Below, piece after piece: positions 4,907 to 50,625 of a stretch of 53,840 bases of DNA. Every line of letters begins with the position of its first letter. Position 1 is the first letter of the stretch. Made by a program: the position numbers and the translations under genes. Origin of the DNA: a virus. Location of the stretch: IMG/VR virus record IMGVR_UViG_3300025671_000087, positions 1 through 53,840 of that record; one strand, written 5' to 3'. Below the pieces are notes generated by a model. It saw only the letters and a program-made list of their open reading frames with translations, was not told the origin of the DNA and made no database searches.

Positions 4907-5082
4907 TGAAAAAGAAGTCTACAGTAAATGCAGCTGGTAACTATACCAAACCAACTATGCGTAAGAACCTTGTCGCCAAAGTTAAGGCGGGTGGAAAAGG
5001 TGGCAAACCTGGACAATGGTCTGCGAGAAAAGCCCAAATGGTTGCAAAGCAATACAAAGCAAAAGGCGGTGGATATAAGTAA
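4906..5082 (+). CDS. Small basic phage protein with GGKPGQWSARKAQ motif
   Basis: 58 aa from ATG 4906, which overlaps the previous stop by one base. The C-terminal half, KAGGKGGKPGQWSARKAQ followed by MVAKQYKAKGGGYK, is a conserved marine-phage and large-virus motif of unknown function. The protein is about one third Lys/Arg and Gly-rich. It overlaps the next gene by one base. Confidence 0.65.
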   Translation: MKKKSTVNAAGNYTKPTMRKNLVAKVKAGGKGGKPGQWSARKAQMVAKQYKAKGGGYK

Positions 5083-5213
5083 TGGCAAAAGCTAAGAAAC
5101 TTACAGTAGCTGAAAAGTACCGTCAATTAAAAGCCCAAACTGAATCAGCCGGTATGAAGGTAGAGGAAGTTGACGGTAAAATTGTAGTAAGACGTAAGGC
5201 TAAGAAAAAATGA
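5082..5213 (+). CDS. Tiny basic protein (43 aa)
   Basis: From ATG 5082 to TGA 5213, basic at both ends, ending RRKAKKK. No family recognised. It is supported by exact stop/start overlaps with both neighbours (1 nt and 4 nt), the pattern followed throughout this block. Confidence 0.55.
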   Translation: MAKAKKLTVAEKYRQLKAQTESAGMKVEEVDGKIVVRRKAKKK

Positions 5214-5440
5214 AGAAACCACAGAAGTCTCTAAAAGACTGGGGCAAACAAAAGTGGAGAACTTCAGACGGATCTCCCTCAAAGGGTAAAAAAAGATACC
5301 TGCCAGACTCGGCATGGAAATCTTTGTCGCCTGGAGAAAAGGCAGCTACCAACAAAGCTAAGGCAACAGGTAATGCTAAAGGTAAACAATTTGTAAAACA
5401 GCCCAAGAAGATTGCAGCTAAAACCAGGAAGTTTAGATGA
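5210..5440 (+). CDS. Small basic conserved phage protein (SLKDWGKQKWRT type)
   Basis: 76 aa. The N-terminal KSLKDWGKQKWRTSDGSPS, central RYLPDSAWKSLSPGE and C-terminal GKQFVKQPKKIAAKTRKFR are a recognisable conserved set in marine phages and algal viruses; function unknown. Lys content is very high. It overlaps its neighbours by 4 nt each side, so expression is coupled. Confidence 0.65.
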   Translation: MKKPQKSLKDWGKQKWRTSDGSPSKGKKRYLPDSAWKSLSPGEKAATNKAKATGNAKGKQFVKQPKKIAAKTRKFR

Positions 5441-5727
5441 TGAAAAAGACTCAATGTCCAAAGTGTAAAGGTAAAGGATGCTCCCATTGTGGTGGCAAAG
5501 GTTATCATACTGGTATGAACAAAGGTGGTGTTATGAATGAAGGTATGAAGGCTCTAAAGAAAAAAGCCCCAGCAGTAGCTAAGAAGATGGGCTACAAACA
5601 CGGTGGTACAACTGCTAAAAAAGGTATGTCTTACGGAGGTATGGCTAAAAAGAAAATTGGCATGAAAGATGGTGGTATGGCTAACTGTGGTGCTTCCATG
5701 AAACCTAATAGGATGTCCAGGTCATGA
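5437..5727 (+). CDS. DnaJ-like single zinc motif with Gly/Met/Lys-rich tail
   Basis: 96 aa (ATG 5437 or the adjacent ATG 5440). Residues 6-22 hold CPKCKGKGCSHCGGKGY, two CxxC pairs as in one repeat of the DnaJ zinc-finger domain. The rest is a low-complexity repeat of GGM and MAKKK units. Zn binding is likely. HMO-2011-type marine phages carry a DnaJ-type domain inside their polymerase; this polymerase lacks it, and the motif is found here in a separate tiny gene. Whether the two are related is unknown. Confidence 0.6.
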   Translation: MMKKTQCPKCKGKGCSHCGGKGYHTGMNKGGVMNEGMKALKKKAPAVAKKMGYKHGGTTAKKGMSYGGMAKKKIGMKDGGMANCGASMKPNRMSRS

Positions 5728-5990: not shown

Positions 5991-6346
5991 GTGTACTCAA
6001 TCAGGGCAAACCAGCACGTATGCGTTCTGTGTATGGTCACAACAGTGGCACTGCTACAGAGGTTGTATATACATGTCCTGCTAACTGTGTAGCTGAGGTT
6101 ACGTTTATCCATGTAGTCAACGGTGGTGGAAGTACAAACTCTGTAGATGTAGAGTGGTATGTAGCAGCTGATAACTACACGTCTCACTTTCTTTCAGGTA
6201 AGAGTTTAAATGCAGGTGATTACGTTACCTTTTCCGACATCGACCTAGTACTGCAGCCGGGTGACAAGATACAAAACGTACCTACTTCTGCTGGTCATAT
6301 TGACACTATCCTTACTGTAACAGAGACCTTTGTTCCAGTAGGGTAA
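5987..6346 (+). CDS. Beta-rich small protein, probable virion component
   Basis: 119 aa, predicted by eye to be mainly beta strands (alternating V/T/Y patterns). The stretch YTCPANCVAEVTFIHVVNGG and a LQPGDKI turn resemble small trimer-type accessory structural proteins found near phage head and fibre genes. It has two cysteines close together. No enzyme motif. It ends the coupled block; a promoter begins 6 nt after its stop. Confidence 0.55.
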   Translation: MSVLNQGKPARMRSVYGHNSGTATEVVYTCPANCVAEVTFIHVVNGGGSTNSVDVEWYVAADNYTSHFLSGKSLNAGDYVTFSDIDLVLQPGDKIQNVPTSAGHIDTILTVTETFVPVG

Positions 6347-6351
6347 CGGGG

Positions 6352-6380
6352 TTGCACTATTGTCAATAGTGTGGTATAAC
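6352..6380 (+). promoter_or_regulatory. Promoter TTGCAC-17-TATAAC with an inverted repeat in the spacer
   Basis: -35 TTGCAC (6352-6357), 17-bp spacer, -10 TATAAC (6375-6380). A perfect inverted repeat CACTATT/AATAGTG (6355-6361/6365-6371) overlaps the -35 and spacer, ideal for a repressor. A second GGTATAACT follows at 6388-6396. Confidence 0.55.
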
Positions 6381-6389
6381 TAAGTATGG

Positions 6390-6445
6390 TATAACTCCTG
6401 TGTATACAAACGTGTATACATGATGTTCATGAAACAGGAGTTATA
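6390..6445 (+). promoter_or_regulatory. Multi-palindrome leader that can sequester the ribosome-binding site
   Basis: A perfect 12-bp inverted repeat, TATAACTCCTGT at 6390-6401 and ACAGGAGTTATA at 6434-6445, encloses a second hairpin (TGTATACA, 6401-6408/6413-6420, 4-nt loop) and a third (CATGA, 6419-6423/6427-6431). The AGGAG of the next gene (6436-6440) lies inside the outer stem, so folding would block translation. As DNA it could also be a set of operators. Confidence 0.55.
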
Positions 6446-6448
6446 AAC

Positions 6449-6598
6449 ATGAAATGGTTAATCAATTGGTTTGAAGCAGTAGCTGTAGCACAACAACGCC
6501 GTGCAGACTATTGGCTTTTAAAGAATATGTCCGATAAAGAATTGAAGGACATTGGAATATCCCGTGGAGAGATTGCTCAAAAAGTCTTTTTAGGTTAA
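6449..6598 (+). CDS. DUF1127-like micro-protein
   Basis: 49 aa, ATG 6449 with AGGAG 8 nt upstream. Residues 27-42, MSDKELKDIGISRGEI, match the LSDRELKDIGLSRGDI-type core of DUF1127 proteins, which are common in Alphaproteobacteria and have been linked there to phosphate/carbon metabolism and to RNA binding and turnover. The N-terminus (MKWLINWFEAVAVAQQRR) also fits the family. It stands alone between a promoter with operator-like repeats and the next structural gene, unlike its overlapping neighbours. A role in redirecting host RNA metabolism is inference. Confidence 0.8.
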   Translation: MKWLINWFEAVAVAQQRRADYWLLKNMSDKELKDIGISRGEIAQKVFLG

Positions 6599-6642
6599 AA
6601 TCTATATTATAAATAGGTAGATGAGACTTTGGGAGGAGGCTC

Positions 6643-7116
6643 GTGGATCCAATTACCATAATGGCTGGAGCATCAGCTGCGTTTAATGCCATAAAAAAGG
6701 GTATTGAGGTAGGCAGAGGCTTGCAAGATATGTCTGGCCAATTGTCTCAGTGGGCAGGAGCCATGTCTGACTTAGGTCGGGCAGAAACAAAAGCTAAAAA
6801 CCCCCCTTGGTGGAAATCACTAAGTGGGGGTGTAGAACAAGAAGCTATGCAAATTTTTGCTGCTAAGAAAAAAGCAGAAGAAATGCGTAAGGAGCTTAAG
6901 CAATACATATCATTTAGTATGGGTCCATCAGCTTGGGAAGAACTTCTCCGAATTGAATCCCAGGTACGTAAGAGAAAACAAGAGCAGGAGTACCGCAAAG
7001 AAGAAATAAAAGAAGCTATTATTAACTGGTCTGTTGGCATATTAGCTGCCCTTGTAGGATTAGTTATATTAACTGTAGGTTTTTATTTTCTCGGTACACA
7101 ACAAGGAAAGTGGTGA
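6643..7116 (+). CDS. Conserved phage protein starting MDPITI, C-terminal membrane helix
   Basis: 157 aa from GTG 6643, preceded by a strong GGAGGAGG. The N-terminus MDPITIMAGASAAFNAIKKGIEVGR is shared by a family of marine phage proteins usually sited near packaging or structural genes; function unknown. The middle is helical and highly charged; one membrane helix spans about 129-151. It may sit in the virion or in the host inner membrane. It is followed 4 nt later by the small terminase gene. Confidence 0.65.
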   Translation: MDPITIMAGASAAFNAIKKGIEVGRGLQDMSGQLSQWAGAMSDLGRAETKAKNPPWWKSLSGGVEQEAMQIFAAKKKAEEMRKELKQYISFSMGPSAWEELLRIESQVRKRKQEQEYRKEEIKEAIINWSVGILAALVGLVILTVGFYFLGTQQGKW

Positions 7117-16631: not shown

Positions 16632-17705
16632 ATGGCTTTTCAATCCGCAGGTGGACACGGGAATTTACCAAACGGTAATTTTTCTAGTGTTATCTATTCC
16701 AAGAAGGTCCAGCTCGCCTTTAGAAAGAGCACAGTCGTTGGTGATATCACTAACTCCGATTATTTTGGGGAGATTTCTGCCCAAGGGGACACTGTTAAAA
16801 TTATTAAAGAGCCTGAGATTTCAGTTGCGGCATATGCCCGTGGCCAGAACATCACAGCACAGGATCTTGATGATGAAGACTTCTCCCTCGTAATCGACAA
16901 AAGCAACTACTATGCTTTCAAAATCGACGACATCGAAGAAGCTCACAGCCACGTAAATTTCATGGATCTTGCAACCAACCGTGCGGCTTACCGCCTGGCT
17001 GATCAGCATGACCAAGAAGTTTTGGGTTACCTGACAGGTTACAAACAGTCTGACTTGCATGCTCAAGCAGATACTGTAAATGACGTTGTCAATGGTACAA
17101 AAGCTGTAGCAACTGCAGGTTCAGATGAATTGCTTGGTTCAATGAAACTGAAAAAAGGTGACTTTGGTAACATCACTACTTCAGGTGCTGCTGACCATTC
17201 GATTCCTGTTGCAGCACGTCTACCAGGTGCAACTGCACTGCCAACTGCTACGATCTCACCAGCTATGTTGGTGGCACGTATGGCTCGTTTGCTTGACCAA
17301 CAACAAGTTGACAAGCAAGGGCGTTTTATCGTCGTTGATCCAGTATTCATGGAAGTACTTCGTGATGAAGACTCACGTTTCATGAATGCCGATTACGGTG
17401 AAGCGGGTGGCCTACGTAACGGTCTTGTCTTGAACAACTTCCACGGTTTCCGTGTATACAGCTCAAGCAACTTGCCAGCACTGGGTACTGGTCCAGGTAC
17501 AACAGGTACTGCAAACCAGAATGCCAACTTCGGTGCAATCGTAGCTGGTCATGATTCTGCTGTTGCAACTGCAGAGCAAATCAGTAAAACTGAAACTTAC
17601 CGTGACCCTGACAGCTTTGCTGACATCGTTCGTGGTATGCACCTATACGGTCGCAAGATTCTTCGTCCAGAAGCTCTTGTAACTGCCAAATATAACTTAG
17701 CATAA
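16632..17705 (+). CDS. Major capsid protein
   Basis: 357 aa, preceded by ATGGAGG. The pattern MAFQSAGGHGNLPNGNFSSVIYSKKVQLAFRK, a helix with DKSNYYAFKIDDIEEAH, RFIVVDPVFMEVLRDEDSRF and a C-terminal DSFADIVRGMHLYGRKILRPEAL is the HK97-fold capsid type of marine podoviruses. It has its own promoter and long leader, which fits high expression. Codon choice is more biased to C/G-ending codons than in the neighbours. Confidence 0.88.
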   Translation: MAFQSAGGHGNLPNGNFSSVIYSKKVQLAFRKSTVVGDITNSDYFGEISAQGDTVKIIKEPEISVAAYARGQNITAQDLDDEDFSLVIDKSNYYAFKIDDIEEAHSHVNFMDLATNRAAYRLADQHDQEVLGYLTGYKQSDLHAQADTVNDVVNGTKAVATAGSDELLGSMKLKKGDFGNITTSGAADHSIPVAARLPGATALPTATISPAMLVARMARLLDQQQVDKQGRFIVVDPVFMEVLRDEDSRFMNADYGEAGGLRNGLVLNNFHGFRVYSSSNLPALGTGPGTTGTANQNANFGAIVAGHDSAVATAEQISKTETYRDPDSFADIVRGMHLYGRKILRPEALVTAKYNLA

Positions 17706-49440: not shown

Positions 49441-49607
49441 TTTACGTTCACCTCCAGGCATAAAACTTTTTGATTGTTGTTGTTTACAAGAACCCCAGCC
49501 TTTTGTAGAGACTGTTGGCATTCTTCCTGAGTAGAAAAGCTGCCGATCTGAAAGTAATCAACACCTGTTCCAGCTATTATTTGTACCCATATAGATACCC
49601 ATATCAT
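49437..49607 (-). CDS. Small protein with hydrophobic N-terminus (56 aa)
   Basis: ATG 49607 overlaps the integrase stop and its stop overlaps the next start (ATGA). MIWVSIWVQIIAGTG is a hydrophobic or signal-like start; DYFQIGSFSTQEECQQSLQKAGVLV...VLCLEV follows with two cysteines. Similar signal-bearing small proteins occur in cyanophages as I recall. Exact overlaps on both sides support it. Confidence 0.65.
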   Translation of the reverse strand: MIWVSIWVQIIAGTGVDYFQIGSFSTQEECQQSLQKAGVLVNNNNQKVLCLEVNVK

Positions 49608-50488
49608 ACTCTTTGTCTCCTATCTAATGCAGACTTTGCGGTTTTTAAACTAAACTTGTTGTACGGATTTAAACTTTGTACATGCTTATGACCTGATACA
49701 GATTGAATTGCAAGATGGTCTACACCACTCTCGATCATCTGCACAATGGCGGTCTTTCTTAAGTCACCCACTCGGAGGTCATCAGGAAGCCCTGCAGCAG
49801 CCTTAACGTCTGTAAGCAGTGTTGTCATCTGAACAATCGTTAGAGGCCTGTAGGCACTGTCCTGTGGCCTGTGGTGAGGTACTACGTAGGGCTGGAAGTC
49901 CCAGTCCTCTTTCTGCTGTTTGAGCATCGTGAGTAAGTTGTCTGGAATAGGTAGCTCAACAGTTGCACCTCGTTTGCTTTGAGTGATTGTCACTACCTCA
50001 TTCTCAAGGTCAACTTGATCCCATTGCAAGTTGCGTATGTCTATGGGTCTCTGCCCCCATTCATAACACATCAAGATAATCAGCCCAAGGTTTCTCCAGT
50101 CGAAGTTTTGGAATGCTGCGTCGAGGCATGATAGTACTTGGTCGTGCGTCCAGATAACTGAACGTGGCTCACTTGTACGTTTCCGTACTCGTGACATAGG
50201 ATTGGTAGGCATCTTCTCCATCGTGATCAGATAGTTCATCAGGACGGAGAATATACGTGCCTTGTGGTTTGCATTGGATGTAGATGTCTCCATCTCCCAC
50301 GTATCGTATATCTCCGTGCAAAGTGGGACGTTAAGATTCTTGATGGAGATATTACCCAGAGTCCTACCACCTACGGACATACGACAGAAAGAATGTAGTG
50401 CCGACTCGTAACCTTTTTGAGAGGATGCTGCCAGTGATGCAAACTGCCGTGTGTGTAGGTATTCATCTACTGCTGTTCTAAATCTCAT
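49604..50488 (-). CDS. int: Tyrosine recombinase / integrase
   Basis: 294 aa from ATG 50488 with AGGAA upstream (a TTG at 50512 is possible). Core-binding domain about 1-105 and catalytic domain after. R147 (GQRP), K173 (SKRG), R244 (GDLRKTA), H267 (SGHK) and Y276 (NPYNKF) are in place; the usual His of the HxxR box is Gly241. Translationally coupled to the ThyX-region genes and lying 61 bp from tRNA-Arg. Confidence 0.85.
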   Translation of the reverse strand: MRFRTAVDEYLHTRQFASLAASSQKGYESALHSFCRMSVGGRTLGNISIKNLNVPLCTEIYDTWEMETSTSNANHKARIFSVLMNYLITMEKMPTNPMSRVRKRTSEPRSVIWTHDQVLSCLDAAFQNFDWRNLGLIILMCYEWGQRPIDIRNLQWDQVDLENEVVTITQSKRGATVELPIPDNLLTMLKQQKEDWDFQPYVVPHHRPQDSAYRPLTIVQMTTLLTDVKAAAGLPDDLRVGDLRKTAIVQMIESGVDHLAIQSVSGHKHVQSLNPYNKFSLKTAKSALDRRQRV

Positions 50489-50548
50489 ATCTTTCCTAAC
50501 CAGTGTGTACAATCGTCATGTGGATCGTCCATGTTAGCCTCCATAGAT

Positions 50549-50625
50549 TGGCCCACCCTGCAGGACTCGAACCTGCAACCTACTGCTTAGAAGGCAGTTG
50601 CTCTATCCAGTTGAGCTAAGGGTGG
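50549..50625 (-). tRNA. tRNA-Arg(TCT), 3' CCA encoded
   Basis: 77 nt. Acceptor CCACCCT/AGGGTGG, D stem GCTC/GAGC, anticodon stem ACTGC/GCAGT with loop CTTCTAA (anticodon TCT), T stem GCAGG/CCTGC with TTCGAGT loop, discriminator G and CCA. All stems pair perfectly, so it looks functional. It reads AGA/AGG, which are frequent in this phage. Its place beside the integrase also makes its 3' half a candidate att core. Confidence 0.95.

Follow-up and report, generated by a model that had tools for sequence, protein, structure and literature searches.

A DUF1127 gene of Roseobacter-infecting HMO-2011-type phages with a conserved leader predicted to mask its Shine-Dalgarno sequence

Introduction

Why should a gene of 49 codons, set among the densely packed genes of a phage, possess a promoter of its own and a leader able to conceal its ribosome-binding site? 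The question is raised by positions 6352-6598 of a 53,840-nt viral contig (IMG/VR record IMGVR_UViG_3300025671_000087, hereafter the window), for which a first-pass annotation had proposed a DUF1127-like protein under layered control. HMO-2011-type phages are a group of marine viruses described as dominant and broadly distributed, and by homology the window is an HMO-2011-type roseophage: its TerL is 80% identical to that of CRP-9, 79% to that of CRP-13, and 65% to that of HMO-2011, and its portal and coat homologues, together with its gene order, also match phages of this type.

The gene lies in a rightward block that holds lysis, packaging, and structural genes, with the replication genes running in the opposite direction. 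In the non-coding region that divides the leftward genes from the rightward block, the segment 1817-1920 contains operator-like repeats (TACTTTAAGTAAC / GTTACTTAAAGTA, a 13-bp perfect inverted pair, with further copies). A TTGACT-17-TATAAC promoter follows at 1969-1997, and the segment might be a control region for lysogeny or late expression. A run of small Lys-/Gly-rich ORFs with repeats such as GGMAKKK occupies 5082-5727, just upstream of the DUF1127 cassette. Elsewhere in the window, a tyrosine integrase gene (49604-50625, - strand) adjoins a tRNA-Arg(TCT), a candidate attachment site that differs from the host tRNA-Met used for integration by CRP-3 (PMC6918029).

Results

The open reading frame at 6449..6598 (+ strand, 49 aa) encodes a member of the DUF1127 family, as had been proposed. 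Its product matches the Pfam profile PF06568 with an E value of 4e-8 and 33.3 bits, against a cut-off of 23.3, and a profile search of the whole 53.8-kb contig returned this match alone; the same cut-off was passed by 18 of the 21 phage records searched. NCBIfam gave no match for the window protein. Comparison with relatives revealed up to 16 synonymous and 0-8 nonsynonymous codon changes, where random change would be expected to yield 3.8 nonsynonymous per synonymous, and this excess of synonymous change identifies the ORF as a real, constrained gene. An AlphaFold2 model of the protein consists of three helices (residues 2-25, 29-35, and 39-48; mean pLDDT 81.8), and a search of the PDB found no convincing relative, only a short match to IcmE. 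A scan of 84,980 species genomes with the protein found seven distant relatives only, at 51-62% over partial length, and Roseobacter contributed none of these. On the evidence of its sequence, the gene belongs to a known bacterial family, of which it represents a new branch in phages.

The phage protein has in common with the small DUF1127 proteins of Agrobacterium, E. coli YjiS, and Rhodobacter CcaF1 (PMC12501420, PMC10253847) an above-cut-off Pfam match, its shortness, and a conserved L-x-D-I/L-G-I-x-R core; unlike these members, it is phage-encoded, contains 6% arginine, and has a conjectural function. Arginine-richness (about 14%) is typical of DUF1127 proteins, as a trait rather than as the definition of the family (PMC12501420). 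The window copy does not display this trait, having an arginine content of 6.1% (mean of the phage set, 11.5%) and a net charge of +2, and RNA binding by the phage protein should therefore not be assumed. The connection between the family and RNA turnover that had been drawn in the first-pass annotation holds for one bacterial member, CcaF1, for which passages of PMC12501420 and PMC10253847 report RNA binding. It does not extend to Salmonella YjiS, for which RNA binding was not observed (PMC11707872), and newer work instead connects bacterial DUF1127 proteins with binding of the PhoR sensor kinase and with phosphate control (PMC12501420). One may conjecture that the phage protein is a mimic or competitor of the small DUF1127 regulators of its host, acting on PhoR-linked phosphate control or through CcaF1-like RNA effects; PhoR-linked modulation is the role that we prefer, although we hazard it as a weakly founded guess.

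Gene and leader recur in related phages, and neither of the two outcomes named in advance as refuting the first-pass annotation, a missing HMM match or absence from related phages, was observed. Each of the 11 cultured Roseobacter-infecting HMO-2011-type phages examined (11/11) has one DUF1127 match, and the gene is present at 36 of the 37 IMG/VR loci whose sequence reaches 3.5 kb or more ahead of terminase, while profile searches found none in HMO-2011, whose host is SAR116, or in HTVC033P and HTVC115P, which infect SAR11. The counterpart in CRP-3 is ORF47 (gp47), one of three genes exclusive to the RCA phages CRP-1, CRP-2, and CRP-3 relative to HMO-2011 (PMC6918029). This is the same gene in a cultured relative, described there only as of "unknown function", with neither family nor leader given. 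Among relatives, a DUF1127 annotation occurs in the CRP-603 genome record only, and the paper on the wider HMO-2011-type group makes no mention of the domain. Our literature search found no paper on a phage-encoded DUF1127 gene; the annotation line of one genome record names it.

DUF1127-like genes are also present in unrelated roseophages (Siovirus/Cobavirinae, CRP-4 to CRP-7, CRP-118, and CRP-403), the match in CRP-7 being weak (E 0.02). In cobavirus-type and CRP-118-type roseophages (loci L094, L095, L096, L099, and L100), DUF1127 overlaps both the end of mazG, at its stop, and the start of the ribonucleotide reductase gene, an arrangement that suggests coupling with nucleotide metabolism; the gene is not annotated as DUF1127 in these phages, and in the cobaviruses it has no separate leader. 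A DUF1127-like stretch also occurs in a hypothetical gene of the Sinorhizobium phages phiM12, phiM7, phiM19, and phiN3 (KF381361.1, KR052480.1, KR052481.1, and KR052482.1), as a weak match with 47% identity over 32 aa and an E value of 0.02. Repeated capture by phages of alphaproteobacteria suggests that DUF1127 may have a host-related role, and its occurrence in the Roseobacter-infecting members alone, in unrelated roseophages, and possibly in Sinorhizobium phages would fit the pattern of a host-interaction gene; the host-takeover switch suggested in the first-pass annotation is a conjecture that goes beyond this.

The private promoter-like element that the first-pass annotation had recognized, with an inverted repeat in its spacer, proved to be strongly conserved. 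It comprises a -35-like TTGCAC (6352..6357, + strand) and, 17 bp further on, a -10 box TATAAC preceded by TGG (6375..6380, + strand), with an inferred start at about 6387; we designate it P1. Two elements had been missed. One is a conserved CGGGGTTGCA element (6347..6356, + strand) that exists as a single exact copy in the window and whose CGG lies 42-45 bp upstream of the second -10 box, described next, in 27 of 27 leader clusters. The other follows from the presence of near-exact copies of the -10 region, AGTGTGGTATAACT and AGTATGGTATAACT, 15 bp apart: the second copy would constitute a second extended -10, TGGTATAAC (P2; 6387..6395, + strand; hexamer 6390-6395), located inside the 5′ arm of the leader stem and with a putative start at about 6402.

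Among 95 unique promoter regions, 70 contain P1 (TTGCA, 17 bp, TATAAC) and 25 lack it. TTGCA is conserved and the P1 -10 box near-invariant across the 70 P1-type leaders. P1 has decayed and P2 is intact in L079 and L116; in L123, P1 is intact and P2 reads TAAAAC, a form of P2 that is found in several clusters. When DNA alone was scanned with the P1 promoter pattern, at least 80 independent loci were recovered, and DUF1127 lies no more than 330 nt downstream in all 80 of the 80 matches listed; the sole terminase locus without DUF1127 is also without the promoter. P1-less and P1-type leaders could not be fitted by one promoter model. Readings of GGGTTGCA as a sigma54-like or a lambda cII-like element were dropped after inspection by eye.

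The P1 spacer holds an operator-like palindrome, CACTATTG-T-CAATAGTG (6355..6371, + strand), which is perfect (8/8) in the window only and is represented in relatives by an imperfect dyad. Over the 70 P1-type leaders, this dyad scores a mean of 4.2/8, compared with 2.4 for shuffled and 1.2-2.8 for shifted positions. In P1-less leaders the spacer motif is absent, and a palindrome at the corresponding position is not generally above chance. The sequence plausibly represents a putative operator for a phage or host regulator; a window-wide search located it once, and this single copy gives no indication that the phage contains a regulon.

Leader palindromes able to hide AGGAG had likewise been described, and the folding calculations reproduce them. 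The 5′ (anti-SD) arm TATAACTCCTGT (6390..6401, + strand), which overlaps the P2 -10 box, pairs with the 3′ arm ACAGGAGTTATA (6434..6445, + strand) to form a perfect 12-bp stem over the Shine-Dalgarno (SD) sequence AGGAG (6436..6440, + strand), and the main loop contains an inner hairpin, TGTATACA-AACG-TGTATACA (6401..6420, + strand; palindromes 6401-6408/6413-6420). The fold has a minimum free energy of -22.9 kcal/mol (z -3.2), a value matched by none of 200 shuffles. A search of 6300-6700 against Rfam gave no match up to an E value of 1. The predicted probability that the SD is unpaired is about 0.0001 in read-through RNA and 0.89 in RNA initiated at P2. Across 94 distinct leaders, its mean in read-through RNA is 0.05, compared with 0.42 when the upstream sequence is shuffled; the means for P2 and P1 RNA are 0.67 and 0.02, respectively.

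The neighboring genes had been said to be densely packed and to lack such control, and this is broadly correct: 15 control genes of the window with an SD give probabilities of 0.04-0.73, as against 0.0001 for DUF1127. An exception is the control at 16632, whose homology to the HMO-2011 coat gene makes it a probable major capsid gene: its value is 0.04 in a 118-nt context and 0.72 when the context is shortened, so that DUF1127 may not be the only gene of this phage with a masked SD.

Several comparisons point to selection on the stem. SD-covering stems are better than dinucleotide shuffles in 19 of 27 clusters at p ≤ 0.05, a level that overstates independence because the leaders are kin; the clusters of CRP-2, CRP-3, CRP-603, L060, and L064 have stems no better than their shuffles. 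Outside the SD core, 280 of 375 pairs are formed among 75 unique arm pairs, whereas exchanging the 5′ letters among leaders gave a mean of 181 and a maximum of 204, although the register was selected by pairing and the observed value is thereby favored. Positions just outside the SD core pass through several standard pair types (such as C-G to A-T, or T-A to A-T to C-G), and sliding the arm lowers pairing from 739 to 415-513 of 1107. A cleaner test than the covariation count is the exchange of 3′ arms with equal search freedom, in which the leader's own arm averages -13.0 kcal/mol and a foreign arm -8.2 kcal/mol, the own arm being better in 71 of 75 cases. Moreover, in CRP-235, CRP-738, L049, and L056, essentially the whole 5′ arm is situated upstream of the -10 box, so that the private RNA cannot contain it; that these relocated arms are still predicted to pair with the SD would be hard to explain without selection. 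The predicted masked-SD arrangement is kept across some 100 distinct viral sequences.

Discussion

Gene family, conservation, masking stem, covariation, and arm position are computed properties of this locus, and from them we infer start sites, timing, and an effect on translation. The best reading, which we hold with moderate confidence, is that a read-through block of the T4 lysozyme/I-TevI type acts on the phage DUF1127 gene. The genes upstream run in the same direction and are closely packed, and a search for terminator-like sites on the + strand between the nearby ones and 6449 found none; read-through is therefore expected. In RNA arriving from these genes, the SD would be folded into the stem and DUF1127 would go untranslated, its output being switched off in the long polycistronic RNA. 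The P2 -10 box belongs to the anti-SD arm or, in some relatives, is located downstream of it, and initiation at P2 would thus give a leader of 21-50 nt without most or all of the arm, in which the SD is free. In the window, a start near 6402 would leave the 5′ arm out of the RNA altogether, and a start near 6387 would include it, so that P1 RNA, where used, would be fully masked too and would require opening. DUF1127 synthesis would in this way be coupled to private initiation by host RNA polymerase, presumably early in infection or in the prophage, and the promoter region, the masked ribosome site, and the gene would form a self-contained cassette inherited together in Roseobacter-infecting HMO-2011-type phages.

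Either the RNA that is translated comes from P2, or that from P1 is gated and has to be opened. Given a 5′ arm that either overlaps the -10 box or lies ahead of it, the comparative data suggest that the hairpin mainly silences read-through RNA; against this stands the observation that many P1-type leaders have a P1 better than their P2. The second branch of the choice, in which P1 is the working promoter and its 5′-terminal hairpin gates the private mRNA until it is opened by a ligand, appears rather unlikely to us. The opener might be the DUF1127 protein, a host RNA-binding protein, temperature, an sRNA, or RNase cleavage, and such gating would accord with the -35-like TTGCA placed 17 bp from a near-invariant -10 in 70 leaders, with the value of 0.02 for an unpaired SD in P1 RNA, and with the RNA binding that a passage of PMC12501420 reports for CcaF1, a member of the same family. 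Yet most of the 25 other leaders that retain the stem have lost or lack P1, the arm precedes the only -10 box in four families, Rfam offers no match within 6300-6700, and loop sequences are not conserved from one family to another, a point against a ligand-binding pocket.

Late promoters of the lambda Q type combine a Q-binding site with a sigma-dependent pause downstream of the start. A comparable arrangement here would consist of P1 with a protein site between its -35 and -10 elements, and of P2 as the place where RNA polymerase pauses for an antiterminator that feeds the terminase and structural genes, DUF1127 being the first passenger. We regard this as improbable: it would account for the conserved dyad in the P1 spacer, for the -10-like repeat 14-15 bp downstream of the P1 -10, and for the terminase genes that come after DUF1127, but P1 is missing in several families, no terminator-like site was found just downstream, and the SD covariation is left unexplained. 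That a repeated -10 sequence happens to complement the SD and so gives rise to the stem, in a leader with no translational role, is most improbable, for although strings resembling TATAACTCC are complementary to GGAGTTATA by nature and AT-rich leaders fold easily, there are compensatory changes at many pairs, arm swaps lose pairing, arms are relocated in relatives, and the masking far exceeds that of shuffles.

Returning to the read-through block, a family is now assigned to one gene of the three reported to be restricted to the first Roseobacter-infecting HMO-2011-type members, and the gene is demonstrated computationally to have a conserved control cassette of its own, opening a possible link between phage infection and host phosphate sensing or RNA turnover. 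A more speculative extension, which we put forward tentatively, is that a -10 box doubling as the anti-SD arm would let private transcription initiation decide translation as well, and that the host-mimicking DUF1127 protein would rewire phosphate sensing or RNA turnover in the host, in the course of infection or in lysogeny, aiding the fit between phage and Roseobacter. If true, the cassette would help a very abundant phage group to suit its Roseobacter hosts.

The closest precedents are the T4 genes e and I-TevI, whose longer transcripts are silenced and for which a promoter overlapping the arm gives a translatable RNA (PMC3014915, PMC2988022). As in the leaders of T4 gene e, soc, and I-TevI, the SD in the window is sequestered, by computation, in long transcripts initiated upstream, and a promoter that overlaps the 5′ arm gives arm-less transcripts in T4, as is predicted for P2. 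T4 employs a T4 late promoter, whereas that of the window is sigma70-like (TATAAY); unlike the T4 leaders, the gated gene encodes a small DUF1127 protein, and many roseophage leaders have a second -10 box upstream, whose RNA is predicted to be masked. A DUF1127 leader of S. meliloti acts by transcription attenuation through a translated upstream ORF (PMC12218461). It is similar in that a leader RNA controls a DUF1127 gene of an alphaproteobacterium, but attenuation differs from the direct SD masking, overlapping a promoter, that we describe for the window. The mechanism proposed here resembles a known phage device, in an arrangement that is real, conserved, and new in detail.
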